Shown here: positions 41,016-55,453 of the stretch, in pieces | Layout of the letters: each line of letters begins with the position of its first letter | Position numbering within the stretch: position 1 is the stretch's first letter | Source of the DNA: Isosphaera pallida ATCC 43644 | GTDB taxonomy: Bacteria > Planctomycetota > Planctomycetia > Isosphaerales > Isosphaeraceae | NCBI RefSeq assembly: GCF_000186345.1 | Contig: NC_014962.1 | Coordinates: 4,554,450 to 4,618,449, forward strand | DNA: 64,000 nt | Direction of reading: 5' to 3' | Position numbers and translations under genes: made by a program | Notes under the pieces: generated by a model | Database searches by the model: none | Seen by the model: the letters and a program-made list of their open reading frames with translations, nothing else | What the model was told of the DNA's origin: nothing

Positions 41016-41288
41016 AGGTGAGCCTCCAGGCGAAAACGATCCTGGACCACCCGACGCTTCCGAACTTCGTCCCGCCCCGCTTCGCGTCGTATGCGACTCG
41101 TTTGATTTCGTTCCATTTCAGGCAGGGCGGGTCGCCGAGGGGAGGTTGAGCGTCTAGAATCAATGCGTGGCCTCAACCGATCGAACCACGCGCAGGTATC
41201 CCTCCAGTCGAACACGACGGACGCCTAGCGCGGTGATCGCGCGAGCCTTGGCTGCGTCCAACGCTCCGTTGATGGACCTCGCGCATTG

Positions 41289-42086
41289 ATGTTCAGGTTG
41301 CCCACCTCGCGTTTGTTCGCTCTCCCTGAGCCGGTTCGAGACCGTCAGGCCGAATGGATGGATCAAGCCGGCTTGGATCCGTTGGAACATCGTCGCGCTC
41401 TGCGTGGCCTGGCGCGGATCAACGCCGTGAGCGGCTCTGGGCGGGCCATTCTGTCCGAACTAACCAAGCTAGCGCGCCGTTTGGGGCCACCTCGCCCGTT
41501 GCGGATATTGGATCTGGCCTGCGGCGGCGGTGATGTGGCTTTGGACCTGGCGCGTCGAGCCCCGCGTCGGGGGCTTTCAGTGGTGGTCACCGGCATCGAC
41601 CGCGCTGCCGAGGCGATCGCCCTGGCCCGCGAACAGGCGGCCCGCGCTGGTCTGAGTAACTGCCTCCACTTTGAGACCGCCGACGTTCTGAGCGACCCCT
41701 GGCCCCGGGCTCCTCGCACCTTCGGCGACACTTGTTCCATCAAGGATGATGGGCGGTTTGATGTCGTTACGTGTTCGCTCTTTCTCCACCATCTCGACGA
41801 GTCGGACGCGACCCGATTGCTGACCCGCATGGCGGCCGAAGCGGCCCATCTGGTTTTGGCTGACGATCTGGAACGCTCTCGTCTTGGCTGGGCTGTAGCC
41901 TGGGTCGGCACCCGCCTGCTGTCCCGCTCGCCCATCGTCCACCTCGATGGTCCCCTGTCGGTGCGGGGTGCCTTCACCCTAGCCGAAGCCGCGGAGCTCG
42001 CCAACCGCGCGGGTTGGCGACGGATCGTGGTTCGCCGCCGCTTTCCGTTTCGCTACATTCTCAGCGGCGAGGTGTCCTCAACATGA
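41289..42086 (+). CDS. Class I SAM-dependent methyltransferase of a type III PKS cassette
   Basis: 265 residues. Motif I is ILDLACGGGDVALDLARRA, followed by VTGIDRAAEAIALAREQA and a motif with VTCSLFLHHLDESDATRLL, typical of UbiE-like methyltransferases. The C-terminal part (GAFTLAEAAELANRAGWRR) also fits. Its TGA overlaps the ATG of the flavoprotein gene (ATGA), so the three genes to 44644 are a tight operon. It probably methylates the polyketide product; the target atom is unknown. Confidence 0.85.
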   Translation: MFRLPTSRLFALPEPVRDRQAEWMDQAGLDPLEHRRALRGLARINAVSGSGRAILSELTKLARRLGPPRPLRILDLACGGGDVALDLARRAPRRGLSVVVTGIDRAAEAIALAREQAARAGLSNCLHFETADVLSDPWPRAPRTFGDTCSIKDDGRFDVVTCSLFLHHLDESDATRLLTRMAAEAAHLVLADDLERSRLGWAVAWVGTRLLSRSPIVHLDGPLSVRGAFTLAEAAELANRAGWRRIVVRRRFPFRYILSGEVSST

Positions 42087-43429
42087 CGAATGCGAACACG
42101 AAGAGGAGTTGGGAAACCGAGGCGTCAACAGCGTCAACCTTCACGTCAACGTCGCCTTCGGCGCTGCCAGGAGCGGCCTACGACGCCGTCGTGGTGGGGG
42201 CGGGTCCCGCCGGCTCGGTCACGGCAATGGGGTTGGCTGAGCGGGGTTGGTCGGTGGCTCTGATCGATCGCGCGACGTTCCCACGGTCCAAGGTCTGTGG
42301 CTGCTGCCTCAATCAACACGCCCTCTCGACCCTCCAGACCCTGGGACTGGCCGACGTAACCGCCGACGCTCCCGTGCTGGATCGGTTCCGCCTGGTGGTA
42401 GGCGGAGGGGGACGCCTCGACTTGCCGTTACCTCCCGGCCGCTCCTTGTCGCGGATGGTGTTCGACCAACGTCTGATCGATCACGCGCGACGACGCGGGG
42501 TCCACTTCCTGGAGCGAACCACCGCTCGCCTTGAGCCGTTGGAGCCCGTCGCGGCTCCTGGTTCAGTCGCTTCGCCGTGGCGGCGGTTGCGATTGCGTCA
42601 AGATGGGGAGGTCGCCGACGCAGAACCACGGGAATTCCTGGTGATGGCTCGGGTCGTGGTTGCCGCCGACGGTTTGGCGGGCCGCCTCGCGGCCGATGAG
42701 CCGGGGATGGCTGTCGTCACGCGGGCCGACTCTCGAATCGGGGCCGGCCTAGTGGTTGACGCCGCAACCTTGGGTGGAGCTGGTCCCGAACCTGGCCAGA
42801 TTCTCATGGTTCTGGGTCGAGCCGGTTACGTCGGCCTGACTTTGTTGGAGGATGGTCGGGTTGATCTGGCCGCCGCGCTGGATCCTCAGGCCGTCAAGCG
42901 CGCGGGGGGAGTGGGCCGGGCGGTCCTCACCGTGTTGCGGGCCGCCGGGCTTGCCGCGCCCGAAGAGTTGGCGCTGGCTCCTTGGCGGGGCACCCCCGCG
43001 TTGACCCGTCGTCGTCGTCCCTGGGGCCGGCGGATTGTCGCGGTGGGGGACGCGGCGGGCTATGTCGAACCCTTCACCGGCGAGGGCATGGCTTGGGCGG
43101 TCGCCTCGGCCGCGCTGGTGGTTCCCTTGCTGGATGAGGCGTTGCGCCTCTCTGGTTACGCGGGGGCCGCGGGCGGGGAGTCGGACTGTTGGCCCGCTGA
43201 GGTCGGACCGCGTTGGGAAGCGCTTCATCATCGCCTGATCGGGCGTCGTCAACGAGTCTGCCGAGTGCTAAGCCGCGTGTTGCGTCATCCGCCCGCCGTG
43301 GCCGGGGTGCGACGGTTGGCGGTTCGTTGGCCTGGGACGTTGCGTCCTCTGACCCAGAGTCTGAACCATCCCACCGCGCCGCTTGCGAGCGTCGCGCCCC
43401 CCTCAGGAGCGGCCGCCGCGTCGTCTTGA
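42083..43429 (+). CDS. FAD-dependent oxidoreductase (geranylgeranyl reductase-like/monooxygenase)
   Basis: 448 residues. The FAD-binding motif YDAVVVGAGPAGSVTAMGLA lies near residues 33-52, followed by SKVCGCCLNQHAL, a Cys-containing motif of the geranylgeranyl-reductase-related flavoproteins. The second FAD motif is RRIVAVGDAAGYVEPFTGEG. Low-complexity residues 1-30 precede the domain. Between a methyltransferase and a type III polyketide synthase it is likely to hydroxylate or oxidise the aromatic product, comparable in logic to the flavoprotein SrsC in Streptomyces srsABC. Start by ATGA overlap with the preceding gene. Confidence 0.85.
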   Translation: MTNANTKRSWETEASTASTFTSTSPSALPGAAYDAVVVGAGPAGSVTAMGLAERGWSVALIDRATFPRSKVCGCCLNQHALSTLQTLGLADVTADAPVLDRFRLVVGGGGRLDLPLPPGRSLSRMVFDQRLIDHARRRGVHFLERTTARLEPLEPVAAPGSVASPWRRLRLRQDGEVADAEPREFLVMARVVVAADGLAGRLAADEPGMAVVTRADSRIGAGLVVDAATLGGAGPEPGQILMVLGRAGYVGLTLLEDGRVDLAAALDPQAVKRAGGVGRAVLTVLRAAGLAAPEELALAPWRGTPALTRRRRPWGRRIVAVGDAAGYVEPFTGEGMAWAVASAALVVPLLDEALRLSGYAGAAGGESDCWPAEVGPRWEALHHRLIGRRQRVCRVLSRVLRHPPAVAGVRRLAVRWPGTLRPLTQSLNHPTAPLASVAPPSGAAAASS

Positions 43430-43432
43430 TCC

Positions 43433-44644
43433 ATGAACGCGCCTTCCTGCCACGTCTCCCGCCAGGGGACTGAGCCGTTGGAGTCCGCCAGCGACGCCCC
43501 CACTGCGCCCCCCCCCGGTGGGATGGGGTTTGTGATCGAGGGATTGGGGACCGCTCTGCCCCAAGGGCGGCTTGAACAGGCTCAAACCGCCCGCGCCCTG
43601 GCGCGGATCAGCGGAAGCGATCCCGCTAAATACGCCGCGCTCTTTCGTCGCGCCAACATCCAAGCCCGTCACTTCGCCCTGCCGCCCGACGTCCTAAGCG
43701 ACCTGGTGGAGGGAACGACCCACACCGACTCCCCCTTCGTTCCCCGGCCTGGTTCAGATCAGGATGGGCCCTCAACCGGTCAACGGATGAAAGCCTATAG
43801 CCAATTCGCGCCTGAGCTGGCTTTGCGGGCGGCTCGAATCGCCCTGGAGGAAGCCGGGGTCGCTCCCGAGACAGTCGCTCACCTGATCACGGTCTCCTGC
43901 ACAGGATTCGCCGCGCCGGGGGTCGATCTGGCGTTGATTGAAGGGTTGAACCTGCCGCGCCAGGTCCAGAGGCTGCACGTGGGATTCATGGGGTGCCACG
44001 GAGCCGTCAACGCTCTGAGAACCGCCCGGGGGCTGGCGGCGGTGGAGGAAGATCCCCAAGCGCGTCTGCTGACGGTGGCCGTCGAGTTGTGTTCCATCCA
44101 CTTTCGCAGCCGTCCCGACCCGCGCTCGGTGGTGGCCAACGCCTTATTCGCCGATGGAGCCGCCGCGGTGGTGGGTCGCGGCGAACGCCACGCGACCGCG
44201 GCATCGTTGCCCACGGGATCGGGCTATCGGGTGGTCGATGGAGGAGCCATGTTGTTTCCAGGCACCGCTGAGGCCATGACCTGGACCATCGGCGACCACG
44301 GCTACGAGATGACGCTGGACCCGCGTGTGCCGGAGTGGATCGGCGCTCATCTGCGGCCCTGGCTGGAACCGTGGCTGGCGCGGCGGGGTCTGGGTCTAGA
44401 GTCGATCGGCTCCTGGGCGGTTCATCCCGGCGGTCCCCGAGTGCTGGACGCCACCGCTGAAGCACTGGGATTGCCGAGCGAGGCGTTAGCGGTCTCGCGG
44501 CAAACCCTCGCTGAACTCGGCAATCTCTCTTCACCCACCATTTTGTTTTTGCTGGAGCGTCTGCGTCGCAGGTCCGCGCCCCGTCCCGTGCTGGCCCTGG
44601 GATTCGGTCCCGGCTTGGCCGCCGAGGTGTTGCTGTTGGAATGA
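43433..44644 (+). CDS. Type III polyketide synthase (chalcone/stilbene synthase family)
   Basis: 403 residues, normal family length. The Cys-His-Asn triad is visible: C188 in VGFMGCHGAVN, H331 in SWAVHPGGPRVLD, and N364 in ELGNLSSPTILF. The C-terminal FGPGLAAEVLLLE matches the GFGPG motif of the family. It condenses malonyl-CoA units onto a starter acyl-CoA to make an aromatic ring (resorcinol, pyrone or phloroglucinol type); starter and product cannot be read from sequence. The ATG is 3 bases after the flavoprotein stop. Confidence 0.95.
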   Translation: MNAPSCHVSRQGTEPLESASDAPTAPPPGGMGFVIEGLGTALPQGRLEQAQTARALARISGSDPAKYAALFRRANIQARHFALPPDVLSDLVEGTTHTDSPFVPRPGSDQDGPSTGQRMKAYSQFAPELALRAARIALEEAGVAPETVAHLITVSCTGFAAPGVDLALIEGLNLPRQVQRLHVGFMGCHGAVNALRTARGLAAVEEDPQARLLTVAVELCSIHFRSRPDPRSVVANALFADGAAAVVGRGERHATAASLPTGSGYRVVDGGAMLFPGTAEAMTWTIGDHGYEMTLDPRVPEWIGAHLRPWLEPWLARRGLGLESIGSWAVHPGGPRVLDATAEALGLPSEALAVSRQTLAELGNLSSPTILFLLERLRRRSAPRPVLALGFGPGLAAEVLLLE

Positions 44645-44715: not shown

Positions 44716-46173
44716 TCAGTTCGGACCCGCAGGCGCGTCCGCCCGCGGAGGTAGGGGCGACACGCGGGGGCTGTCATAACCCTGGGGAAACGCTAGGAAT
44801 TCGACCAGACGATCAAGGAGCGACTCTAGGTCGGCGGCGTCTTCAACGGCGATGACACGCGAGGTAGCGCGGGCGTCGTCGCCCAGGGTGGCGAGATTGA
44901 GATACAGGCGAGCCAGGCGATCCCAATCGCGCGCGCGAATCCGGTCACCTTGGGCTTGCCCCGGATCCAAAAGGCGTCGCGCTTGGTTGAGGTGATCCCG
45001 AATCAGAGCAACCGAATCGAACGAGGTCCCAAAGGGGTCGGCGTCCATCGTCTTGAGGAGGTTGGCGATCGCGCTCCGCGCTTCGCGGACATGTCCGCGA
45101 ATGGCGTCGGGGTTGGGGTCGTCCGATTCCATTTGCTCGCGCAATGCCTTCAACGTCTCTTCAACGTCCAGGAAGGTGGTTTCGGCGTCCCAAAGCAAGG
45201 AGGAGGCGTACCAGCTTCCCCAGTCAAGTTGGCCGGGCCGGCGCCGCGACTTGGTTCGGTCAGACAAGGAAAGAGTGAACGCAGGCAACCCGGCGAGGTT
45301 GGTGTGGCAGGAAAAGCAATTGTACTCGGAGAGCTCGGGCCAACGGGGATTGGTCGAGTCGGCGCGGGCCATGAGCAAGTTGAGGGCGGCGTCGAGCGCG
45401 ACAAGCCGGCCCACCACAGCATCGCGGAGCGGGCGGCGGTCCTGGTCAAGCGTAGGACGCCAGTGAGTGGGCCAGTCGTGGCGATCACCAGCGAAGTCGA
45501 AGTGGAGACGCGGATGACCCGCGGCGATCAGGTCGTGATCGACCTGGCGGGTGGCGTCGCCCACATGGCAGCCTAAGCAGGATTCGGCCTGGAGCCGGGC
45601 GGGGTGGAGAGGGCGGGGTTTGAAACGCTCGTGGTCTTTGTGCTGGGGACGAGCGTGGGGCACCAGCCAGTTGCGAGCTGGGCCGTGGCAGCTCTCACAG
45701 CCGATCCCGCCGCCGAACCAGGACCGATGCGCTTCCGGCGAAAGGTCAACCGGAGCCTCGGGCAACGCATGGCAACCCAGGCAATCCCCGCGCTGGTAGG
45801 GACGGTTGGCGGTGTGATTCCAAGCGTGGAAAATGCGCTGCGAACGAGATGAGTCCAAGGTGTCGTAGGCATGGGCGTGCGGATCGTTCCGAGCGTAACG
45901 GGTCCACTCGCCACCGTTGATTTCGAGAGCGACTACGTCGCCGTGGCAACCCCGCCGCCCACAGGAGAAGTCGCCGACGTATCCGGCCCGGGTCAAGATC
46001 GCCTCGGGGTCGTCGAGCGCAGGGTCAGTTCCAGTCGTGTGGGAAACCCGCGTGGTGGTCCAACGCGGAGTCGAACCGATTTCCTGCGGTTCCCACCCTC
46101 CGCCAAGCAACCAGACCGCGGTTCCCAGAAACGCGACTCGCGGGATTCGACTCCAACGCTTCGGCAGGATCAT
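44716..46173 (-). CDS. Periplasmic multihaem cytochrome c, c554-like
   Basis: 485 residues. An N-terminal signal or anchor (IPRVAFLGTAVWLLGGG) precedes YVGDFSCGRRGCHGDVV, where the first haem motif is CX4CH (C71-C76-H77). Four normal CxxCH motifs follow (CLGCH, CESCH, CLGCH, CFSCH) with many His as possible distal ligands. The spacing resembles the cytochrome c554 family of electron-transfer proteins. The C-terminal 200 residues are helical without haem motifs. GAGGTGATC, a full anti-16S match, lies just upstream of ATG 46173. It is divergent from the NADH-oxidising gene cluster and may act in the same chain. Confidence 0.87.
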   Translation of the reverse strand: MILPKRWSRIPRVAFLGTAVWLLGGGWEPQEIGSTPRWTTTRVSHTTGTDPALDDPEAILTRAGYVGDFSCGRRGCHGDVVALEINGGEWTRYARNDPHAHAYDTLDSSRSQRIFHAWNHTANRPYQRGDCLGCHALPEAPVDLSPEAHRSWFGGGIGCESCHGPARNWLVPHARPQHKDHERFKPRPLHPARLQAESCLGCHVGDATRQVDHDLIAAGHPRLHFDFAGDRHDWPTHWRPTLDQDRRPLRDAVVGRLVALDAALNLLMARADSTNPRWPELSEYNCFSCHTNLAGLPAFTLSLSDRTKSRRRPGQLDWGSWYASSLLWDAETTFLDVEETLKALREQMESDDPNPDAIRGHVREARSAIANLLKTMDADPFGTSFDSVALIRDHLNQARRLLDPGQAQGDRIRARDWDRLARLYLNLATLGDDARATSRVIAVEDAADLESLLDRLVEFLAFPQGYDSPRVSPLPPRADAPAGPN

Positions 46174-46738
46174 AAGATCACCTCTCCCAGACTCGCTCAC
46201 GCTGGGGCGACGGCTCGCCGACCCGCCCCAGGCGTCACGCTTGAAATCGGGTCCGACTTCCCGAGCCGCGCTTCTTGTTGCTCCATCCAGGTCCAAGGTA
46301 ACCCGAACCGAAGAGGCGAGCAATCGAGAGCCAGACGGCTTCCGATTCGTCGGGACTTCTTCCTGTCAAATCGCTTCCAACTTGATTGATTTTTTCCTAA
46401 TCGCGTTTTCTCCCGTCTTTTTGGTCCTGGTGTACGGTTTGGGGTTGAATGACGTCGCGTGGCGAGCTGATAATCGGCGGAGAGGCAAATGGTCGCAGTG
46501 GATTGGTCAAGGCAAGGCAAGTGGAGTGTCCAACCGCCGCAATAGGCGGGATCGGGTCCGCGGGCGCGGTGATCGTCAACCGTCAACCTGCTCCGATGCC
46601 ACGGTTCGCATGGGAGATTGACCTTTCCACCTTCGCCTTGCTTCGTTTCACCGCGCGGGTTCACCCGCTCCTTCGCCGTGGTTCGGCTCTACCACCAGGC
46701 CGTTCCTTTTGGCCGATGATCACTCAGGAAATCGTTCT
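46174..46738. promoter_or_regulatory. Divergent promoter region of the electron-transfer genes
   Basis: About 565 bp between the c554-like gene and the NuoEF-like gene. It includes a T-rich stretch at about 46382-46425. A TTGACA on the minus strand (about 46356-46361) has no good -10 at the right distance. I see no coding frame with support. Confidence 0.4.
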
Positions 46739-48454
46739 ATGATCGTTCAGGAACTCAACGCAATCCAACAGAAGTTCGGTTATTTGCCCGAGGAGGAGTT
46801 GCGGGCGTTCTCGAAACGGTCGCAGATTCCGATGTATCGTCTGCATGAGGTGGCCAGCTTCTTTCCTCATTATCGGTTGAAACCCCCGGCCACTGGCACA
46901 GTACTGATCTGCCGCGACCTCGCCTGCCACCTGGCCGGAGCGTCGCGCCTGCTGCAAACCCTCAAAGCCACTGCGCGGGAGACCGACGAGCGAATCGAGG
47001 TCGGCGGCGTCAGCTGCCTGGGCCAGTGCGACCGCGCTCCAGCCCTCCTGATCAACGACCAAGTGATTTGGGGCCAAACCGAGTCGCAACTGCGAGCCTT
47101 GACCCGAGACTCGGTCCACCAGCGCACCCGTGGGGTCCATGACGAGCTGGACAAGGGACCAACCGGCTGGCAGATCGACCCCTACGAAGGCCAACCACGC
47201 TACGAGGCGGTCGGTCTGATGCTTGATGGCGAATTATCCCCCGAGAAGATGATTCAGGAGTTGGAACTCTCCGGCCTCTTCGGTCTGGGCGGAGCTGGCG
47301 GTGCCACCCACGGCAAATGGAGCGAGGTCCGCAAGGAACCCGGTGCCACCAAGTACATTGTTTGCAACGCCGACGAATCCGAACCCGCCGCTTTCAAGGA
47401 CCGCGAACTTCTGCTCCGCGTCCCTCACTTGGTCATCGAGGGGATGACGCTGGCAGCCCTCACGGTAGGGGCTGAAAAAGGGTATCTTTACATTCGTCAC
47501 GAATATCACGATCAAATCGCGGCGGTCGAGGCGGCGCTGGCGGAGGCCCGCGAGCGGGGGATTCTCGGTCAGAGGATTCTGGGAAGCGATCGCACATTCG
47601 AGTTAGAAGTATTCATCAGTCCGGGCGGTTACATTTGCGGCGAGCAAACAGCGTTGTTGGAGGCGATGGAGGATCGTCGGGCCGAGCCGCGCAACCGGCC
47701 ACCCCAACCGATGAAGGCCGGTCTGTGGGGCTGCCCGACGGTGCTGAACAACGTCGAGACCTTGGCGTGGACCCCGGCGATCGCGTTGAAGGGGGGTAAG
47801 TGGTACGCGGGGCTGGGGGTCAACGGGGCGACTGGAATGCGGTTCGTCTCGATCAGCGGCGACGTGAAACGTCCGGGGGTGTACGAGTTGCCCTTCGGCG
47901 GCACGGTGGGGGAACTCATCAAGCACGCCGGGGGTCTCAAGGGAACTCAGAGTGTCCAGGCAATCGCGCCCTCGGGACCCTCGGGCGGCTTTCTGCCGGC
48001 GAGGCTGCGGGTCGACCAGGTGTCCCGCAAGTTTGCCGAACGGTTCTTCACTGGGGGACGGACCGAAATGTCGATCCTCGACCTGCCGCTGGACAAACCA
48101 ACGATGCGGATGCTCGATGTGCCGCTGTTGTCGGCGGTGGTGGTGATCGGTTCGGAGGCCAACCTGCTGGACCTGGCCAAAAACTGCCTGGAGTTTTACC
48201 GCAACGAGTCGTGCGGCAAGTGCGTCCCCTGTCGGATCGGCAGCCAAAAGCTGGTCGAGATCGCCGAGGATCTAATCCAACACCACGGGGCGATGTCGCC
48301 TCAGCGCGCCGAGGCGATCGACGACCTGGCCACGGCGATGATTCAAACCTCTATCTGCGGCCTGGGTCAGGTCGCGCCCCTGCCGCTGACAACCCTGATG
48401 ACGTATTTCCCCAATTTGTTCCGGAAAACCGACTTGCCGAAGACACGATCCTGA
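46739..48454 (+). CDS. NuoE-NuoF fusion NADH dehydrogenase (diaphorase) subunit
   Basis: 571 residues. Residues 1-125 are a thioredoxin-like NuoE domain with [2Fe-2S] ligands C58, C63, C93 and C97 in the normal C-x4-C/C-x3-C pattern. Residues 150-571 are NuoF: VCNADESEPAAFKDREL (NADH/FMN site), GGYICGEQTALLEAMED, an SLBB segment, and the [4Fe-4S] ligands C492, C495, C498 (ESCGKCVPCRIGS) and C540. The FMN loop reads GLGGAGGATHGKW instead of the usual GRGGAGFPTGLKW. AGGAAA lies 7 bases upstream of ATG 46739. This is the HoxF/FdsB architecture, but no hydrogenase or formate dehydrogenase gene is nearby; the next gene supplies the downstream iron-sulfur chain. Confidence 0.9.
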   Translation: MIVQELNAIQQKFGYLPEEELRAFSKRSQIPMYRLHEVASFFPHYRLKPPATGTVLICRDLACHLAGASRLLQTLKATARETDERIEVGGVSCLGQCDRAPALLINDQVIWGQTESQLRALTRDSVHQRTRGVHDELDKGPTGWQIDPYEGQPRYEAVGLMLDGELSPEKMIQELELSGLFGLGGAGGATHGKWSEVRKEPGATKYIVCNADESEPAAFKDRELLLRVPHLVIEGMTLAALTVGAEKGYLYIRHEYHDQIAAVEAALAEARERGILGQRILGSDRTFELEVFISPGGYICGEQTALLEAMEDRRAEPRNRPPQPMKAGLWGCPTVLNNVETLAWTPAIALKGGKWYAGLGVNGATGMRFVSISGDVKRPGVYELPFGGTVGELIKHAGGLKGTQSVQAIAPSGPSGGFLPARLRVDQVSRKFAERFFTGGRTEMSILDLPLDKPTMRMLDVPLLSAVVVIGSEANLLDLAKNCLEFYRNESCGKCVPCRIGSQKLVEIAEDLIQHHGAMSPQRAEAIDDLATAMIQTSICGLGQVAPLPLTTLMTYFPNLFRKTDLPKTRS

Positions 48455-48565
48455 CTTGAGTTGAGGTCAAGGACTTCGCGCGAATTGATTCAACCTGATT
48501 TTCGTTGCGCTTGAATTGAGTGCCACCCCTTCCAAGACCCTTTCCCATCCAGTGGATTCCGTTCT

Positions 48566-50938
48566 ATGAACGCACCCGTTTCCAACGTCAACGGAACCCA
48601 GCTGTCCACGCTCCGTGTCACCATCGACGGTCAGCCGATCGAGGTCGCCGCGGGGACCACGATCTTGGAAGCGGCCCGTCGTCTAGGAATCGATATTCCC
48701 ATTTTGTGCCACCGCGACGACCTACGCGGGGTGGGGGTCTGCCGAGTGTGCGCTGTGGAGGTCAAAGGGGCGCGGACGATGGCTGCCGCCTGCGTCCGCC
48801 CCGTCGAGAACAACATGGAGGTCTCGACTCACCACACCAGCGCCAAGGTGAACCGCTCGGTGGCGACGCTGTTGGAATTGCTGATCACCGACAACCTGGT
48901 GGCGCGTCGTCCCGACCATAAGTTCGGCGAAAACGAACTGGAGACGCTGGCGCGTCGGTTCGGGGTGACCGGGCGGCTCAACGCCAAGGTCGCCGGAGCG
49001 GCGACCCGATTCCCGGCCCCAACAACCAACCGGGGCCAGGATTTCTCCTCACCGATCATCGCGGTGGACCACAACGCCTGCATTCTTTGCGATCGTTGCA
49101 TTCGAGCGTGCAACGATCTCAAGGCGAATCATGTGATGGGACGGATGGGCAAGGGGTATCAATCCCGGATCGCCTTCGACCTGGACCAGCTGATGGGCGA
49201 ATCCTCCTGCGTGGCGTGCGGCGAGTGCATGGTGGTTTGCCCCACCGGAGCACTGGCGCACAAAGGGTTCGTCAAGCCAGAGGTGCTGGAGGGCCAGGTC
49301 GATCCCAAGAAGCGGGTTCGCCCGGCGACCGCCGAGGAACTGGCGGCCCATCCCCTGTTCCAGGGGGTCTCGGCCCAGTTCCTCAAATGGAACGAGGGGG
49401 CGGTGGTGCGGCGGTCCTACAAGGCCGGCGAGGTGATCTGCCGCGAAGGAGAGTACGGACGAACCGCCTTCTACATCGAGGAAGGCGAGGTCGAAATCTT
49501 TCTCGCCACCCAAATGGGACGAGTCGCCAACCGGCCCCGCAAGGGCAAGCTGCTGGGGCTGTTCCCCACCCTCTCCTTCGGCGGACGGCTCGAGACGGCT
49601 CCCCGTCTCGGTTCGGGCGATCACGACCCCGACCGCTTCATCCACATCGACGCCCCAGTGTCTCTGGAAACCTGCCACCCGGTCGCCACCCTGGAAAAAG
49701 GCGAGCTGTTCGGCGAACAGGCGGTCCTCACCAACCAGCCCCGCAGCGCCACTGCCCGTGCCCGAACCGACGTGGTGGTCTTGGAGATGCTCCGCAACGT
49801 GGTCTACATGCTGCGACGCAACAAAGCCTACCGCGAATTGATCGACTCCAAGTTCGTCAAGCGAACCCTGGCCAACTTCGTCCAGTCGCTGCCGATGTTC
49901 ATGGACCTCACCCGCAACAACGAACAAACCGCCTTTCTCGTAGGCTATCTGCTGCCACGGGTCGAACTGGTCCGGCTCGACCCCGGCGCGGTGATTTTCC
50001 GCCAGGGCGACCAGGCCGAAGATTTTTACATGGTGGCGCGGGGATTCGTGAAAGTCGCGCAACGCACCGCCGCCGGCGAACGGATCCTCAACTATTTGGG
50101 CAAAGGATCGTTCTTCGGCGAAATCGGCCTGCTGGCCGGCTTCGAGGAGGTGCGCGAGCTGGCCCCCAACGGCGTCCGCACCGCCACTTGCTCAGCGCTC
50201 GATCATGTGGATCTCATCAAAATCTCGCACAACCACTTCCGAACGATCATGCGGGAGTTTCCCAACGTGCGGCGCTTCCTGCTGAACACCGCGGTGGAAC
50301 GGCTCAAAGAGCAGGCCGAACACCTCAGCCGTCTGGAGAGTCGGCCTCTAGCCGCGTTCCTGGAACAAGGTTTGATGGAGGCGCAAAGCCTTCTGGTGCT
50401 AGACCTTGAAAAATGCACCCGGTGTGACGAATGTACTAAGGCCTGTTCTGACTCGCACGAGGGCGTCACGCGGCTGATCCGCGAGGGGTTGCGGTTCGAC
50501 CGCTTCCTAGTGGCGAGCTCCTGCCGCAGTTGCCTGGACCCGACCTGCCTGCCCGCCTGCCCAGTGGACGCGATCAACCGTAACGGCAAAAGTCTGGAAA
50601 TTCGTATCAAGGATCACTGCATCGGCTGCGGCAAGTGCGCGGAAAACTGTCCCTACGGCAACATCAACATGGTTGAACTCGAACCGCCGCGCCGCAAGCG
50701 CGACGCCGAACTGACCACCGCCGAGGAGGTGGTCCTGCCCCGTCGTTCCTTTGAGACGGAGGAGGCCGACCCCACCGGACGACGGGTCGCGCGGGGACCG
50801 CTCAAGGCGACCACCTGCGACCTTTGCTCCAGCTACGACGGCATCCCCAGTTGCGTTTACGCCTGCCCCCACGACGCGGCCCACCGCATGAAAGGTCAGG
50901 AGCTCTTGGACCTCGTGGCCGCGGCCCGACGGGTTTGA
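48566..50938 (+). CDS. Iron-sulfur/cyclic-nucleotide-binding fusion protein (NuoG-like N-terminus, two cNMP domains, four-cluster ferredoxin)
   Basis: 790 residues. The order is: [2Fe-2S] ferredoxin with C48, C59, C62 and C76 (GVGVCRVCAVEVKG); two [4Fe-4S] motifs C172/175/178/182 and C215/218/221/225; a first cNMP-binding domain (about 265-425) with an intact-looking phosphate cassette FGEQAVLTNQPRSATA; a second (about 440-575) with FGEIGLLAG and RTATCS; then a DmsB/NrfC-type ferredoxin with sixteen Cys in four groups (C617-627, C653-665, C685-695, C751-767). The NuoG N5 (His-Cys3) ligands between the first two regions are missing. Total capacity is seven clusters. The protein has no signal peptide, so it is cytoplasmic. 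It should take electrons from the NuoEF-like subunit, possibly gated by a nucleotide, and pass them to the membrane. Confidence 0.92.
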   Translation: MNAPVSNVNGTQLSTLRVTIDGQPIEVAAGTTILEAARRLGIDIPILCHRDDLRGVGVCRVCAVEVKGARTMAAACVRPVENNMEVSTHHTSAKVNRSVATLLELLITDNLVARRPDHKFGENELETLARRFGVTGRLNAKVAGAATRFPAPTTNRGQDFSSPIIAVDHNACILCDRCIRACNDLKANHVMGRMGKGYQSRIAFDLDQLMGESSCVACGECMVVCPTGALAHKGFVKPEVLEGQVDPKKRVRPATAEELAAHPLFQGVSAQFLKWNEGAVVRRSYKAGEVICREGEYGRTAFYIEEGEVEIFLATQMGRVANRPRKGKLLGLFPTLSFGGRLETAPRLGSGDHDPDRFIHIDAPVSLETCHPVATLEKGELFGEQAVLTNQPRSATARARTDVVVLEMLRNVVYMLRRNKAYRELIDSKFVKRTLANFVQSLPMFMDLTRNNEQTAFLVGYLLPRVELVRLDPGAVIFRQGDQAEDFYMVARGFVKVAQRTAAGERILNYLGKGSFFGEIGLLAGFEEVRELAPNGVRTATCSALDHVDLIKISHNHFRTIMREFPNVRRFLLNTAVERLKEQAEHLSRLESRPLAAFLEQGLMEAQSLLVLDLEKCTRCDECTKACSDSHEGVTRLIREGLRFDRFLVASSCRSCLDPTCLPACPVDAINRNGKSLEIRIKDHCIGCGKCAENCPYGNINMVELEPPRRKRDAELTTAEEVVLPRRSFETEEADPTGRRVARGPLKATTCDLCSSYDGIPSCVYACPHDAAHRMKGQELLDLVAAARRV

Positions 50939-51095
50939 TCCCCCAACCCCAACCAAGCGACTTGACCCCGAAGCCGGTCTTCGTTCCTCCGCTCCGCGAT
51001 TCCCCGAGGATTGGCTCGATGTCCCCCGGTGACAACCTCAAACAGGGCCAAGAAGCGGTTCGGACCGCCCGCCCGCGACGCGACCGCTCCGAGTG

Positions 51096-51510
51096 ATGAT
51101 CGCAACCCAGACGATCCCCAGCGGGGCCGTCACCCACGCCAACACCGCCCAACCCGGTCTGGGCAGCGTCAACGTCAACATCCATCTCGATGCCATGAAC
51201 CACGAGGTGCTCATTGAAAAGATCCAACGTCGGCACCGTTCCCCATCAGCACGCCCTCAAGGTGGTTGACGGCGTCCCGATCTCGTTGCGAACCCAGGCC
51301 CGGTTCTTAGAGCCGCACGCCGCGGCGCTGCCCCGTCACGTCGGCTTCAACGACCCTACCCCGTCCGAAACCCATGAGGACGCGCTGTACAATCCGATGG
51401 GCAACCGCGTGGCCCAACACCGCGCGGCCGACGCCGCGTCCGCGCCCCACCTAGGCACGAGCCGCGACCGCTTCGGCTGGAAGCGGTCGAACCGGATGGG
51501 ACGGAAGTGA
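51096..51510 (+). pseudogene. Frameshifted small gene of unknown function
   Basis: Two frames with GC-rich third positions abut. From ATG 51096 one reads MIATQTIPSGAVTHANTAQP to HEVLIE. Then, one base later after the AAAA run at 51216-51219, the coding bias moves to the next frame (RSNVGTVPHQHALKVVDG) through to the stop at 51510, ending KRSNRMGRK. Removing one A would give a single 137-codon gene. It could be a decayed gene, a sequencing error or two overlapping small genes. I do not recognise the product. It lies between the iron-sulfur/cNMP gene and rpiA; the rest of the gap (50939-51095) shows nothing. Confidence 0.45.
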
Positions 51511-51532
51511 TCCTAAATGGACGGGAGACTCA

Positions 51533-52339
51533 GTGGTGGCCTCGACCACGCAATTTGAATTGGCACTGGAGTTGATCCGACCAGGCGACGTGATTGGTCT
51601 GGGAACCGGCCGCGCCGCCCAGGCGTTCCTCGTCGAACTGGCTCGAAAAGTTCAAGAGGGTCTGGAGATCCGGGGCGTCGCCACCTCTCAGCGCACCGAG
51701 GCGTTGGCTCGAACTCTGGGGATTCCCCTGATCGAACTCGACGAGGTGGAAACCGTCGATTTGACGGTGGACGGAGCCGACGAAATCGCCCCCAACCTCG
51801 ATCTCATTAAGGGTCTGGGCGGGGCGCTGATTCGGGAGAAGATGGTGGCCGCCGCCTCGCGGCGGTTCGTGGTGGTGGCCGGTCCCGGCAAGGAGTTCGA
51901 CCGTCTGGGAGGACGAGGTGTCCTGCCGGTAGAGGTGGTGCCCTTCGCGGTGGAGCATCTCCGGCGTCGCCTGCTCAAAATGGGCTTCGACTCCCGGCCC
52001 CGCATGGCCAAGGTCGGCGCTGAGTGGTTCCGCCGCGGCCTGGAGGGGCTGTTCCTCACCGACAACGGCAACCCCCTCCTGGAAGTCGCGGTCACCCCCG
52101 ACCAACTGGCCAATCCTCACGAGGTTCAGCGCCAATTGCACGACCTGCCGGGCGTGGTGGGCACCGGCCTGTTCCTGGGTATGGCCCAGGTCGCTTTGAT
52201 CGGCCCCAACCCGGTCGATTCTCAGGAATCCAGCGCGGAAATCGCCCGCGTCCCATCGCCCGACTTTGCCAACAACTACCCCCTCCGCATCTTGACCGCG
52301 CCCGGCGTGGATTGGGATCAATTCCGCGCCCGTCCCTGA
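51533..52339 (+). CDS. rpiA: Ribose-5-phosphate isomerase A
   Basis: 268 residues. It interconverts ribose-5-phosphate and ribulose-5-phosphate in the pentose phosphate pathway. Motifs are VIGLGTGRAAQAF (phosphate loop), TVDGADEIAPNLDLIKGLGG with the catalytic Asp, and ALIREKMVAAAS with catalytic Lys/Glu; the C-terminal DLPGVVGTGLFLGMA also fits. RpiA is usually about 220-230 residues; the extra length is mainly at the C-terminus. Two adjacent GTG codons (51533, 51536) are possible starts, with GGGAG about 8 bases upstream. It interrupts the electron-transfer gene set without an obvious functional link. Confidence 0.93.
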   Translation: MVASTTQFELALELIRPGDVIGLGTGRAAQAFLVELARKVQEGLEIRGVATSQRTEALARTLGIPLIELDEVETVDLTVDGADEIAPNLDLIKGLGGALIREKMVAAASRRFVVVAGPGKEFDRLGGRGVLPVEVVPFAVEHLRRRLLKMGFDSRPRMAKVGAEWFRRGLEGLFLTDNGNPLLEVAVTPDQLANPHEVQRQLHDLPGVVGTGLFLGMAQVALIGPNPVDSQESSAEIARVPSPDFANNYPLRILTAPGVDWDQFRARP

Positions 52340-52487
52340 CGGTTCGTTGGTCTTGGTTCAAGGGGCCTCGGTTCGGTTTCGGTTCACTTGATGGCGTGAC
52401 GTTTCTTCCCTTCCGTTCCCTTGCGCTCGCTCCCCAGTTGCTTCCGTCGCTTCCGGGCTCGATTTCCCGTGTTGAGGTGATCGTTTC

Positions 52488-53672
52488 GTGTTGCTCGATC
52501 GCGCCAATCTGCTCCATCGCGCCGACCGCCCGCAACGGACCGGTATCCAAACCATCCACGCGGTTTGGATCGCGGTGGCTCTCACCCTGTTCGTTCTCTC
52601 GACGCTCTGGTACGCCACCGCCTCGCTAGCCGCCGGGCGTCTGCTGGGCGGCTCCAGTCTCCCAGGGTTGACCCTAGGCATTCTGGGTGGAGCAATCATC
52701 CTGTTCGAGTTCCTGTTGGGTTGGCGCAAGTCGAATCGAGTTCGACGGTTCGGCCGGGTCAAAACCTGGATGGCCGGTCACATCTGGCTTGGCCTCGTCA
52801 GCCTGCCTTTGATTCTGCTCCACTGTGGAATTGTCCACTGGGGCGGGGAATTGACCACGATCTTGATGGTTCTGATGATCGTCGCGGTGGCCAGCGGGGT
52901 CTATGGTCTGATCTTGCAAAACCGCATCCCCCGAATGATGCTCCGCGAACTCAGCGCCGAGACGATCTACTCCCAGATTCCCCGCCAAGCCGCCCTCAAC
53001 ATGGTCGAGGCTGACCATCTGGTGCTGGCGGTGTGCGGCCCTCCCGAACCAGTTCCCAACGACGACTCCGCGGCGAACTCAAGCGGTCAATCGGCCGCTC
53101 ACCCCCTTGTCGATCGGTTGCCCCGCTTCGCTCCCGACGCTGAGAACTCTGAGGAGGAACGCGACCGCGACCTGCTGGTCAGCCCCGAGACCGCCGCCTT
53201 CCTGACCGTCAGCTCGTCGCAGTCGTTCGGCAACATCAAGGGACGAGTCGTCCGCACCCGCGCCCAGACCGCCCTGCTTCCCGAAGCCGAACCGCTGCGC
53301 GGCTTTTACGAAACGATAGTCCGTCCCTACTTGCGGTTGGGCAACGGTTCCATGCCCGCCGAGAACTGGGAGCCGGTCCAAGCGTCCCGTGGTTCTCGTC
53401 GCTCTCGCCGTCCCCGCCGCGCTACGATCTCCCCGCTGGCTGATCCCCAACGCGCCTCGGAACTCCTCGCCCAACTCAAAACCAAGCTCCCCACTGCTGC
53501 CCACGAGGTGGTTGACCGGCTGGCCGATCTGGTCGACCAACGCCGCCAGTTCGACCGCCAGGCCGTTTTACATCGTCGGCTCCACTCCTGGTTGGGACTT
53601 CATCTGCCGGTCTCGACGGCGTTAGTTGTACTGATGTTCGTTCATATCTATTACGCAGTTTTTTCCTGGTGA
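52488..53672 (+). CDS. Predicted di-haem b membrane protein
   Basis: 394 residues, five membrane helices. TM1-TM2 lie near 22-48 and 59-78, TM3 near 97-117 and TM4 near 121-144. A roughly 210-residue soluble, charged loop follows, then TM5 at the C-terminus (about 370-393). TM3 has H98 and H112, and TM5 has H372 and H386, each pair 14 residues apart. This H-x13-H geometry on two helices matches bis-His ligation of two stacked b haems across a membrane (as in ferric reductases and NADPH oxidases). GAGGTGAT lies 7 bases before the GTG start. Its stop region holds the ribosome site of the ten-haem cytochrome gene, so both are in one operon. I do not know a named family for it. Confidence 0.78.
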   Translation: MLLDRANLLHRADRPQRTGIQTIHAVWIAVALTLFVLSTLWYATASLAAGRLLGGSSLPGLTLGILGGAIILFEFLLGWRKSNRVRRFGRVKTWMAGHIWLGLVSLPLILLHCGIVHWGGELTTILMVLMIVAVASGVYGLILQNRIPRMMLRELSAETIYSQIPRQAALNMVEADHLVLAVCGPPEPVPNDDSAANSSGQSAAHPLVDRLPRFAPDAENSEEERDRDLLVSPETAAFLTVSSSQSFGNIKGRVVRTRAQTALLPEAEPLRGFYETIVRPYLRLGNGSMPAENWEPVQASRGSRRSRRPRRATISPLADPQRASELLAQLKTKLPTAAHEVVDRLADLVDQRRQFDRQAVLHRRLHSWLGLHLPVSTALVVLMFVHIYYAVFSW

Positions 53673-53680
53673 GGCACGCG

Positions 53681-55453
53681 ATGGCTCAACATTCGGCCCG
53701 CCCAGTTCCCGACGCCAACCTAGCCGCTCCGGCGACGACCGGCAAGAAACGGACCGCGCGGATTCCGTTGGATTACTACAAACGCGGCGACGACCTGAGC
53801 CGTTCCCGCAAGCGGCTGCTGTTGCTGGCGTTGCTCGCGGCCGTCGGCTACATCGCGGTGGGCGAAGCGGCCCGACGCGGGCCGCGTGGCGGCTCGGCCG
53901 GCGGGTTTGGCCTACCGGTCGCTTGGTCGGCCACTGCGCGGATCAATCATGGACCCGTCCACGCCGTCCACGCCTCGTTCGAGCATCGTTGCGACGCCTG
54001 CCACGGACCTTCTCCCAACTCCGGCGGCGGGGATCCTGACCGAATCCTTCCCAACGACCCTTGGCGGGTGGCCAACGAAAAATGCCTCGATTGCCACGCG
54101 GGGCCGGTCCATCATGCCAACATGACGAAAACCGACAAGCAAGCGGGACAGCGTTGCGGCGAGTGTCACCGCGATCACCAGGGACGCGACGCCAACCTGA
54201 CTGCTATGGCCGATGCGGCCTGTCTGACGTGTCACGCCAATCTCAAGCCTCACCTTGGGTCGGGCCACCCCAAGGCAATCCAACCCAACTCGGTGGTCGT
54301 GACCGGATTCATGGCCGGTGGTCATCCCGACTTCAATTTGCCCAAGACCGACGACTCGGGACTCAAGTTCAACCACGCCCTACACATGGCCCCCGGCCTG
54401 GGTCAGGGCTATCGACTCAAGCCGCCCTACGAAGGACGCTACGCCGTCAACGACTCCGGCCAGGTTCAACTCGAATGCGCGTCGTGTCACGTCATTGAAC
54501 GTGACGATCTCAACGTCAAGGGTCTTCCCGCCGCCGTGGCCGACTCGGTGGCCCCCACCATCGAGGCAGCCCGTGAGTTCGTCCGCATCGACTACCAACG
54601 GCATTGCGTCGCTTGCCATGAAACCACGGTCGATGTCGTCACCGGAGATGACGACGGCAACCAACCCCGCCCGTTGAGGGTTCCCCACGGTTGGAACATG
54701 AGTGAGATCCGTTCGTTCCTCAAAGGAGCGATCGCCGCCGATCTGCTCCGAACCCACCCCGACCTCGACAAGCCCCGACCCCGCCGGATGCCTGGCGCAA
54801 GGTCCGACGCCGCTGCCGCGACCACCACGCTCCGAGCCGAACGCGATCGTCGGGTCCGCGAGGCCGAAGCCCGTTTGCACGGCACCAACGGGGCCTGCGT
54901 CACGTGTCACCGCTACACCCGCGAGGATGGCAAGACCAAGTTGGTCCTAACCGCCGCCGATCTCGACACGTCCGGCCTCCCCTCATGGGACGTGGAACGC
55001 CCCAAAGTGCCCGACGTCTGGCTTCCTCACGGCCGGTTCAACCACACCGCCCACCGCGCCTTCGACTGTCGCGGTTGCCACGCTCAAGCCTATGGGCCGT
55101 CCGAGCAGGACCTCGCGGCGGGATTCCACCTCTTCCAATCCGACGACGCCAACAAGATTGGCGACGGCGCGGTCATGATCCCGCCGATCAAAACCTGCTA
55201 CCAATGTCACTTCAATCACGACGGTTCCAACGCGGTAGCCCTCTCGCTCCTACCCAGCTCCTGGATGCAGGGTTTGCTCGGCACGACGATCTCTTCGGCC
55301 CCCCGCGGCGTCCGCAACAATTGCACCGAGTGCCACGGCTACCACAACCGCACTCATCCCCTTCAGGGACCGGGTGCCGAAGTCCACGCGCCTGAAACGC
55401 GCCAGGCAATCGAGAGCTGGATCGGCCTGCACGGGGTTTCCGCGTCTCCCTGA
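53681..55453 (+). CDS. Membrane-anchored ten-haem cytochrome c
   Basis: 590 residues from MAQHSARPVPDANLAAP; GGTGAGG lies 6-7 bases upstream. A GTG at 53669 overlapping the previous stop is the alternative. A basic cytoplasmic segment and one N-terminal helix (KRLLLLALLAAVGYIAVGEA, about 50-65) anchor it, with the rest in the periplasm. Ten CxxCH motifs are present in order: CDACH, CLDCH, CGECH, CLTCH, CASCH, CVACH, CVTCH, CRGCH, CYQCH, CTECH. Many extra His (for example FNHTAHRAFDCRGCH) could be distal ligands, as in cytochrome c3/c7-type modules. It probably receives electrons from the di-haem b protein encoded just upstream. Confidence 0.9.
   Translation: MAQHSARPVPDANLAAPATTGKKRTARIPLDYYKRGDDLSRSRKRLLLLALLAAVGYIAVGEAARRGPRGGSAGGFGLPVAWSATARINHGPVHAVHASFEHRCDACHGPSPNSGGGDPDRILPNDPWRVANEKCLDCHAGPVHHANMTKTDKQAGQRCGECHRDHQGRDANLTAMADAACLTCHANLKPHLGSGHPKAIQPNSVVVTGFMAGGHPDFNLPKTDDSGLKFNHALHMAPGLGQGYRLKPPYEGRYAVNDSGQVQLECASCHVIERDDLNVKGLPAAVADSVAPTIEAAREFVRIDYQRHCVACHETTVDVVTGDDDGNQPRPLRVPHGWNMSEIRSFLKGAIAADLLRTHPDLDKPRPRRMPGARSDAAAATTTLRAERDRRVREAEARLHGTNGACVTCHRYTREDGKTKLVLTAADLDTSGLPSWDVERPKVPDVWLPHGRFNHTAHRAFDCRGCHAQAYGPSEQDLAAGFHLFQSDDANKIGDGAVMIPPIKTCYQCHFNHDGSNAVALSLLPSSWMQGLLGTTISSAPRGVRNNCTECHGYHNRTHPLQGPGAEVHAPETRQAIESWIGLHGVSASP

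Follow-up and report, generated by a model that had tools for sequence, protein, structure and literature searches.

The best-studied outward electron routes of bacteria start from membrane quinol. NOX, FRE and STEAP proteins take electrons from cytoplasmic NAD(P)H through a flavin to two bis-His haems across the membrane, with an H-x13-H pattern of histidines. CymA, CbcL and ImcH exchange electrons with quinone and are described, in an excerpt of PMC6295460, as quinol oxidases and/or quinone reductases; according to the same excerpt, CbcL combines a multihaem cytochrome c with b-type haems (PMC6295460). The porin-cytochrome clusters of Verrucomicrobia have octahaem partners, and the excerpted account of them names no NADH module (PMC5615132). 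Here we analyse a stretch of 64,000 nucleotides of the planctomycete Isosphaera pallida ATCC 43644 (NC_014962.1, positions 4,554,450 to 4,618,449), referred to as the window, which carries a widespread, conserved protein set that probably passes NAD(P)H electrons across the inner membrane towards the cell surface. The genome consists of two contigs with 5,529,304 bases in total, and the window lies inside the contig of 5,472,964 bases.

Four genes on the forward strand encode the core of the set: a NuoE-NuoF fusion (P0001, 46739..48454), which is a diaphorase with 2Fe-2S, flavin mononucleotide/nucleotide, SLBB and N3-type 4Fe-4S domains; an iron-sulfur (Fe-S) protein of 790 amino acids (aa; 48566..50938) with a NuoG/HoxU-like N-terminus, two cyclic-nucleotide-binding (CNB) domains and a four-cluster ferredoxin C-terminus; a putative dihaem cytochrome b with five transmembrane (TM) helices (P0003, 52488..53672), in which a large, probably cytoplasmic domain lies between TM4 and TM5; and a membrane-anchored, presumably periplasmic decahaem cytochrome c (53669..55453). 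The genes for the membrane protein and the decahaem cytochrome overlap by 4 bp. A sequence-only reading of this DNA had described these four proteins, and we find all of them in place and on the same strand. It had overlooked two neighbours, a divergent pentahaem cytochrome c (44716..46323, reverse strand) and the ribose-5-phosphate isomerase A gene (rpiA, 51533..52339, forward strand), which separates the Fe-S gene from the membrane-protein gene in the window. We rejected rpiA as a part of the system and regard it as an interposed bystander; among the other loci surveyed it was found only at the far end of locus L043 (loci are numbered L, genomes G and their contigs C).

A search of one genome per species yielded 166 places with a relative of the 790-aa protein, of which the best 80 were kept, resulting in 81 loci together with the window. 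NuoEF is present in 69 of these loci, the membrane protein in 57, the decahaem cytochrome in 56 and the pentahaem cytochrome in 46, many contigs ending early. Where at least 9 kb are available on both sides, 30 of 36 loci, window included and near-identical organisms counted separately, hold NuoEF, the Fe-S protein, the membrane protein and the decahaem cytochrome. The 54 four-gene loci show 12 arrangements, some differing in pentahaem copies alone, and the gene order of the window is the commonest (16/54). According to the record titles, the relatives belong to Planctomycetota, Acidobacteriota, Methylomirabilota and other groups. The grouping of these genes is not due to chance, as dozens of further genomes keep them together, and we conclude that the gene set is a real, inherited unit. 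Co-occurrence in other planctomycetes had been proposed as a check in the sequence-only reading; the fully flanked loci bear it out, and it extends to Acidobacteriota and other phyla.

Co-inheritance was also scored in 59 relatives. A full-length Fe-S protein (>500 bits) was detected in 19 of them, and strong matches to the membrane protein were present in 18/19 of these genomes in comparison to 2/40 of the others (p = 5e-12, at a threshold of E below 1e-90 that was chosen after the data had been seen). When any hit at E 1e-3 was accepted, the contrast was 18/19 to 16/40 (p = 5e-5), which is weaker because variants lacking NuoEF also carry the membrane gene. Five such loci (L123, L124, L126, L127 and L128) keep genes for the CNB/Fe-S protein, the membrane protein, the decahaem cytochrome and a pentahaem-like cytochrome, and have no NuoEF in the 18 kb read; the decahaem cytochrome of L127 lies in two frames and the pentahaem matches of L123 and L124 are weak. 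The membrane wire may therefore be the core, with an exchangeable input. We also observed an extended CNB/Fe-S protein of 1127-1129 aa at L127:7171-10551 and L128:6905-10291; the extra N-terminal part of the L127 protein, the one scanned, has no Pfam match.

The neighbours in the 81 loci include a nonahaem LVIVD cytochrome (18 loci), an HbpS-like protein (15 loci) and a barrel-family protein ending in Phe/Tyr, with CarboxypepD_reg in the member scanned (15 loci). In the 27 system genomes (19 with the full-length Fe-S protein, three with N-terminal variants and five without NuoEF), strong matches to the nonahaem cytochrome and to the outer-membrane beta-barrel were each found in 26/27 genomes in comparison to 0/32 others, at post hoc thresholds that dropped weak hits in G003, G040, G042, G046 and G006, G014, G050, G052, G058. 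Strong HbpS-like matches were found in 25/27 and 0/32 (post hoc threshold of E below 1e-40, dropping weak hits in G014, G033 and G045). The 32 others include G042, G046, G055 and G058, which have a distant core version with a short Fe-S protein and were counted as lacking the system. The misses for these three families fall in G035, G027, G007 and G010, whose assemblies are split into 490-880 contigs. The control, a glycoside hydrolase encoded in the same neighbourhoods, was not specific (22/27 in comparison to 20/32, p = 0.15). The genera g6 and g9 each contain both states, and the families change together there. The barrel and nonahaem genes of the window genome are adjacent (G000:C2:4,081,292-4,087,491) and the HbpS-like gene is located at C2:840,934, all outside the window. 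The LVIVD label rests on L059, L101 and the window genome's own nonahaem cytochrome, in which the repeat is present, while other family labels rest on single members (CarboxypepD_reg on L087, HbpS-like on L065, and, for families discussed below, cyclase on L078, transhydrogenase-like on L043 and phosphodiesterase on L066).

The prediction of an outer-membrane barrel concerns the homologue from L059 and not the protein encoded in the window genome. The L059 model has a predicted local distance difference test score (pLDDT) of 55 and a predicted template modelling score (pTM) of 0.53 overall, with 18 long strands (219 to 695) mostly at 60-88. It matches barrels of the AlgE/OprD type (Foldseek E 1e-15; Z about 25 and root-mean-square deviation (rmsd) 3.0-3.6 for the ten best).

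The NuoE-NuoF fusion contains the Pfam domains 2Fe-2S_thioredx, Complex1_51K, SLBB and NADH_4Fe-4S, and its NuoE and N3 cysteines are invariant among those of 86 rows that have a residue at these positions. In NuoF, position 303 (codon 47645..47647, forward strand) is Glu in 48, Gln in 38 and Gly in one of 87 rows, which take in duplicate contigs and the window's own copy (L001). We take this position to match the complex I Glu that, from mutagenesis, presumably excludes NADPH, and positions 188 and 323 to match the Phe residues that presumably hold the NADH adenine in complex I. Both co-vary with position 303 across the family: among the 48 Glu303 rows, 46 have Phe188 and 47 have Phe/Tyr323, while none of the 38 Gln303 rows has either (10 are gapped at 188), and the single Gly303 row has Phe188 and Asn323. 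The window protein carries Gln303, Gly188 and Gln323. The NuoF tree suggests two origins of the change at 303, with a single origin not rejected (p = 0.38), and a literature search found no support for a link between this change and the use of NADPH. The sequence-only reading had named NADH as the donor; the donor is best stated as NAD(P)H, and a changed donor is possible. Near the Fe-S gene of 15 loci (L043:12380-13804 and 14 others) we found a pyridine nucleotide-disulphide oxidoreductase (Pfam Pyr_redox in the scanned member, L043), in our reading resembling soluble transhydrogenase.

P0001 is one of three NuoF matches in the window genome. A NuoEF encoded elsewhere, P0007, matches the solved beta chain of formate dehydrogenase (FDH; 7e5z_B) with E 7e-215, in comparison to 2.3e-82 for P0001, and an FDH-like alpha chain, a molybdopterin oxidoreductase that itself contains 2Fe-2S and 4Fe-4S domains, is also encoded elsewhere. 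The third match has NuoF domains and is probably that of complex I; the complex I families NuoB and NuoD match at a third place in the genome. As FDH-like and probable complex I copies of NuoF exist, P0001 need not be assumed to serve these enzymes as a shared diaphorase. No hydrogenase, FDH or proton-pumping arm was found among the six window proteins and ten neighbour proteins of related loci that were scanned. The earlier statement that complex I arm, hydrogenase and FDH are missing applies beside the set; at other places the genome does encode complex I and an FDH, each with a separate NuoF gene. As separate observations outside the window, the FDH-alpha-like and FDH-beta-like genes (L116:5277-8519 and L120:7194-8936) lie about 0.7 Mb apart and do not form one operon, and a protein at L118:10136-12031 (around G000:C2:525372) combines 30-kDa and 49-kDa domains of the complex-I/hydrogenase type among apparent membrane-subunit genes, possibly as part of a group 4 hydrogenase-like or related complex.

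The conserved cysteines of the 790-aa protein (4 + 8 + 16) correspond to one 2Fe-2S and six 4Fe-4S clusters, and the label 'seven-cluster' given in the sequence-only reading is right by motif. Its N-terminal part matches HoxU and FDH alpha chains, with FeFe hydrogenase A6 and HoxU as the best NCBIfam matches, both below cut-off, and its C-terminus consists of 4Fe-4S domains. There is no Cys between 76 and 172, the region where NuoG and HoxU presumably carry their His-Cys3 cluster. The model cNMP_binding scored in three stretches, and two phosphate-binding cassettes are seen, of which the Glu and Arg are conserved in 100% and 100% of 94 rows in domain 1 and in 100% and 97% in domain 2. In the same region, Cys292 never varies across the family and Cys387 is kept in 98% of it, which could represent a redox switch; the window protein, with Val387, would have lost it.

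A class III cyclase (PF00211) is encoded at most 15 kb from a system gene in 21 of 31 genomes, compared to 0.83 expected by chance from cyclase counts and genome sizes, with the distance chosen after the data had been seen and the genomes not being independent. The 31 genomes are the 27 system genomes plus G042, G046, G055 and G058; repeated hits, nearly all within one open reading frame, were typed once, and L078 is the scanned member of the 16-member neighbour cyclase cluster. L124 and L126, two of the loci lacking NuoEF, encode cyclases of other architectures (FHA, GAF), and a protein of L066 matches class-II cAMP phosphodiesterase, its match to Lactamase_B_2 being slightly better. From these sequence features, control of the conduit by a cyclic nucleotide appears likely.

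The membrane protein P0003 was modelled with five long hydrophobic helices (AlphaFold2, pLDDT 83, pTM 0.78). Two putative haem-ligand pairs, each with 13 residues between its members, are located in TM3 (H98-x13-H112, 52779..52823, forward strand) and TM5 (H372-x13-H386, 53601..53645, forward strand). All four histidines are invariant in 56/56 aligned membrane proteins (one of 57, L096, with >450 aa, was left out) and in 51/51 proteins including relatives of 21-22% identity. The loop between TM2 and TM3 has a mean net charge of +5.5 and is therefore probably cytoplasmic, which would place one histidine of each pair near each face of the membrane and the large TM4-TM5 loop inside. Family members gave weak Pfam hits (51 scanned), namely DUF4405 in 19, Ni_hydr_CYTB in nine and Ferric_reduct (PF01794) in four (E 0.1 or better, best 2.5e-5); Ferric_reduct was found neither in P0003 nor anywhere in the window genome. 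A PDB sequence search with P0003 gave no match, and Foldseek on its model returned nothing at E <=0.001 (15 rows at E <=10). In a VIA structure comparison 25 of 29 chains reached Z 2, the best being TorS (Z 8.2), and STEAP1 reached Z 7.0 with an rmsd of 4.5 over 147 positions. No clear match to a known fold emerged for P0003; we read these hits as noise or a common bundle (TorS having an rmsd of 10.4 and STEAP1 lying below the stated helical-bundle noise level).

The decahaem cytochrome has ten CxxCH motifs and one N-terminal TM-like segment; exactly ten motifs are present in 53/57 rows of its family, and a PDB sequence search gave only three matches, all with E 0.86 or worse. The pentahaem cytochrome matches Cytochrome_C554 and has four CxxCH and one Cx4CH, a pattern found in 55/64 rows. 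Its likelier start is an ATG near 46173, ahead of a weakly hydrophobic export or anchor segment. The two cytochromes are fused into one chain in two different genomes (L093, L137). With the nonahaem cytochrome, this makes three multihaem cytochromes with 24 haem motifs in total.

We therefore propose, with somewhat better than even confidence, that the set is the inner-membrane half of an electron conduit from NAD(P)H to the envelope, which is controlled by a cyclic nucleotide and bypasses quinone. The NuoEF flavin would accept a hydride from NAD(P)H, and the electrons would then travel along the Fe-S clusters of the fusion and the seven of the 790-aa protein until they reach the five-TM protein on its cytoplasmic face. 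Two b haems, liganded by the four invariant histidines, would take them across the membrane to the anchored decahaem and then to the pentahaem cytochrome. The barrel, the nonahaem LVIVD cytochrome and the HbpS-like protein probably lead electrons to an acceptor at or beyond the outer membrane. Midway along this wire, the two CNB domains probably control the flow, responding to a nucleotide from a cyclase whose gene is often in the neighbourhood. On electrostatic grounds, outward passage of electrons over two haems consumes membrane potential and does not generate it, in keeping with a regulated valve: the flow would be driven by redox potential and release reducing power. Gene content, conservation, co-inheritance, topology signals and intact cofactor motifs are the direct basis of this proposal, from which we infer cofactor loading, complex formation, direction, acceptor, nucleotide binding and gating, and electron flow. 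The electron conduit of the sequence-only reading is thus supported by conserved co-occurrence, but it needs to be extended by the pentahaem cytochrome, the unlinked outer-membrane partners and the likely nucleotide control; the complex and its electron flow would still follow from the parts by inference. We only tentatively suggest the further-reaching view of a categorically new, quinone-independent and cyclic-nucleotide-gated respiratory line, leading from NAD(P)H through haem b and up to 24 c haems to the cell surface, with exchangeable inputs, and shared by Planctomycetota, Acidobacteriota and others.

Several observations weigh against the proposed conduit. P0003 stays below the Pfam cut-offs and resembles no known fold clearly, and the window NuoF lacks the residues of the presumed NADH pocket, so that its donor may not be NADH. 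Because some relatives show the core without NuoEF in the stretch read, NAD(P)H is not the only possible input. Six of the 36 fully flanked loci lack a part of the set at the thresholds used: the decahaem cytochrome of L033 has two broken frames, L044 and L059 appear to equal contigs G031:C4 and G012:C1, with the membrane gene about 46 and 13 kb off, and L069, L076 and L100 have incomplete sets. The co-inheritance statistics ignore relatedness among genomes, and the barrel and nonahaem genes, located about 0.5 Mb from the window set, are linked to it by co-inheritance only. The window genome's own barrel homologue has no Pfam hit. An 18-strand barrel of the AlgE/OprD type is narrower than the cytochrome-holding MtrB barrel, and such a barrel could export something else. 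The only cyclase found in the window genome is 2.26 Mb from the nearest system gene.

The alternative that retains most weight, though we consider it rather unlikely, is a quinone-linked complex, in which the dihaem protein has a quinone site and works as an NAD(P)H:quinone or quinol:cytochrome c oxidoreductase, with the decahaem cytochrome as a second donor or acceptor. The weak hits of the membrane family to haem b families and membrane families of unknown function are in line with this, as is the fact that the known entry proteins CymA, CbcL and ImcH are quinol oxidases and/or quinone reductases (excerpt of PMC6295460). All 54 complete loci, however, retain NuoEF and an Fe-S chain on the cytoplasmic side, for which a plain quinol oxidase would have no use.

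Outward flow is the simplest reading of the parts and their topology. The same parts could serve either direction, as diaphorases are reversible, and an external or periplasmic donor could reduce NAD(P)+ through the chain. We hold this to be unlikely: transfer from a donor above the NAD(P)+ potential would be uphill in redox and would also run against the inside-negative membrane potential, and no energy-coupling subunit was recognised in our scans of the conserved genes. Similarly improbable in our view is that the set, instead of respiring an external acceptor, supplies reducing power for work in the periplasm or outer membrane, such as export, the handling of haem or redox reactions of surface polymers. 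In favour of this, ordinary aerobic heterotrophs are common among the hosts, the co-inherited barrel is similar to the alginate exporter AlgE and another co-inherited protein matches HbpS; however, AlgE-like barrels share their fold with many unrelated porins, and three multihaem cytochromes with 24 haem motifs amount to more wiring than one would expect a process of this kind to require. The view, named by the sequence-only reading as a refuting alternative, that NuoEF and the Fe-S protein serve a distant hydrogenase or FDH, in which case the cytochromes would be unrelated neighbours, is largely refuted and was rejected despite the resemblance of the Fe-S protein to HoxU and FDH alpha chains, as no such enzyme was recognised among the proteins scanned beside the set, P0007 is far closer to the FDH beta chain and the co-inheritance with membrane and cytochrome genes is near complete.

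If the proposed conduit is real, it would be a route that starts from NAD(P)H and has a signalling-nucleotide domain built into its wire. It would provide an unrecognised outlet for reducing power, switchable by a second messenger, for Planctomycetota and Acidobacteriota of soils, peat, groundwater and lakes, and give a role to a membrane protein family that is absent from Pfam descriptions.

Elsewhere in the window, a type III polyketide synthase (chalcone/stilbene synthase domains) is encoded downstream of genes for a flavin adenine dinucleotide-binding oxidoreductase and a methyltransferase (41286-44644, forward strand), and this stretch looks like a small biosynthetic operon. Scans for promoters (2 found, 1.3 expected) and terminators (12 found, 9.4 expected) gave results near chance.

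In comparison to known systems, the cytoplasmic module resembles HoxFU, HydBC, FdsBA and the N-module of complex I in its NuoE-NuoF and NuoG-type N-terminal Fe-S domain with intact 2Fe-2S and N3 cysteines. Unlike these, it lacks the His-Cys3 cluster as well as a hydrogenase, FDH or proton-pumping arm beside the set, and CNB domains and a ferredoxin C-terminus replace the catalytic part. With CymA, CbcL/MtoC/MtrH and ImcH the set shares an exit for electrons from the inner membrane towards periplasmic multihaem cytochromes c, but, judging from its domains, it would be fed by a diaphorase that oxidises NAD(P)H in the cytoplasm, and b and c haems would reside on separate chains. A single chain of the CbcL/ImcH type, combining haem b helices or several TM helices with c haems, was not found, as the decahaem cytochrome has one TM-like segment and the dihaem protein has no CxxCH. 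Like NOX, FRE and STEAP proteins, the set would lead from cytoplasmic NAD(P)H through a flavin to two putative bis-His haems, with two histidine pairs on two helices; it differs in having NuoEF and an Fe-S wire as its flavin part and a decahaem cytochrome as the putative acceptor, and in that P0003 has no Ferric_reduct hit. As in the porin-cytochrome conduits (MtrAB, Omb-Oma and the Verrucomicrobia porin-multihaem cytochromes), an outer-membrane barrel adjoins a multihaem cytochrome, but the barrel model is 18-stranded and AlgE/OprD-like, the cytochrome is a nonahaem protein with LVIVD repeats and an NAD(P)H module is co-inherited. A literature search over titles and abstract openings, excluding subscription papers and preprints, found no description of this assembly, and a term search of PMC11475568 gave no matching passage. 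The parts are thus of known kinds, and their assembly into one system is apparently undescribed.

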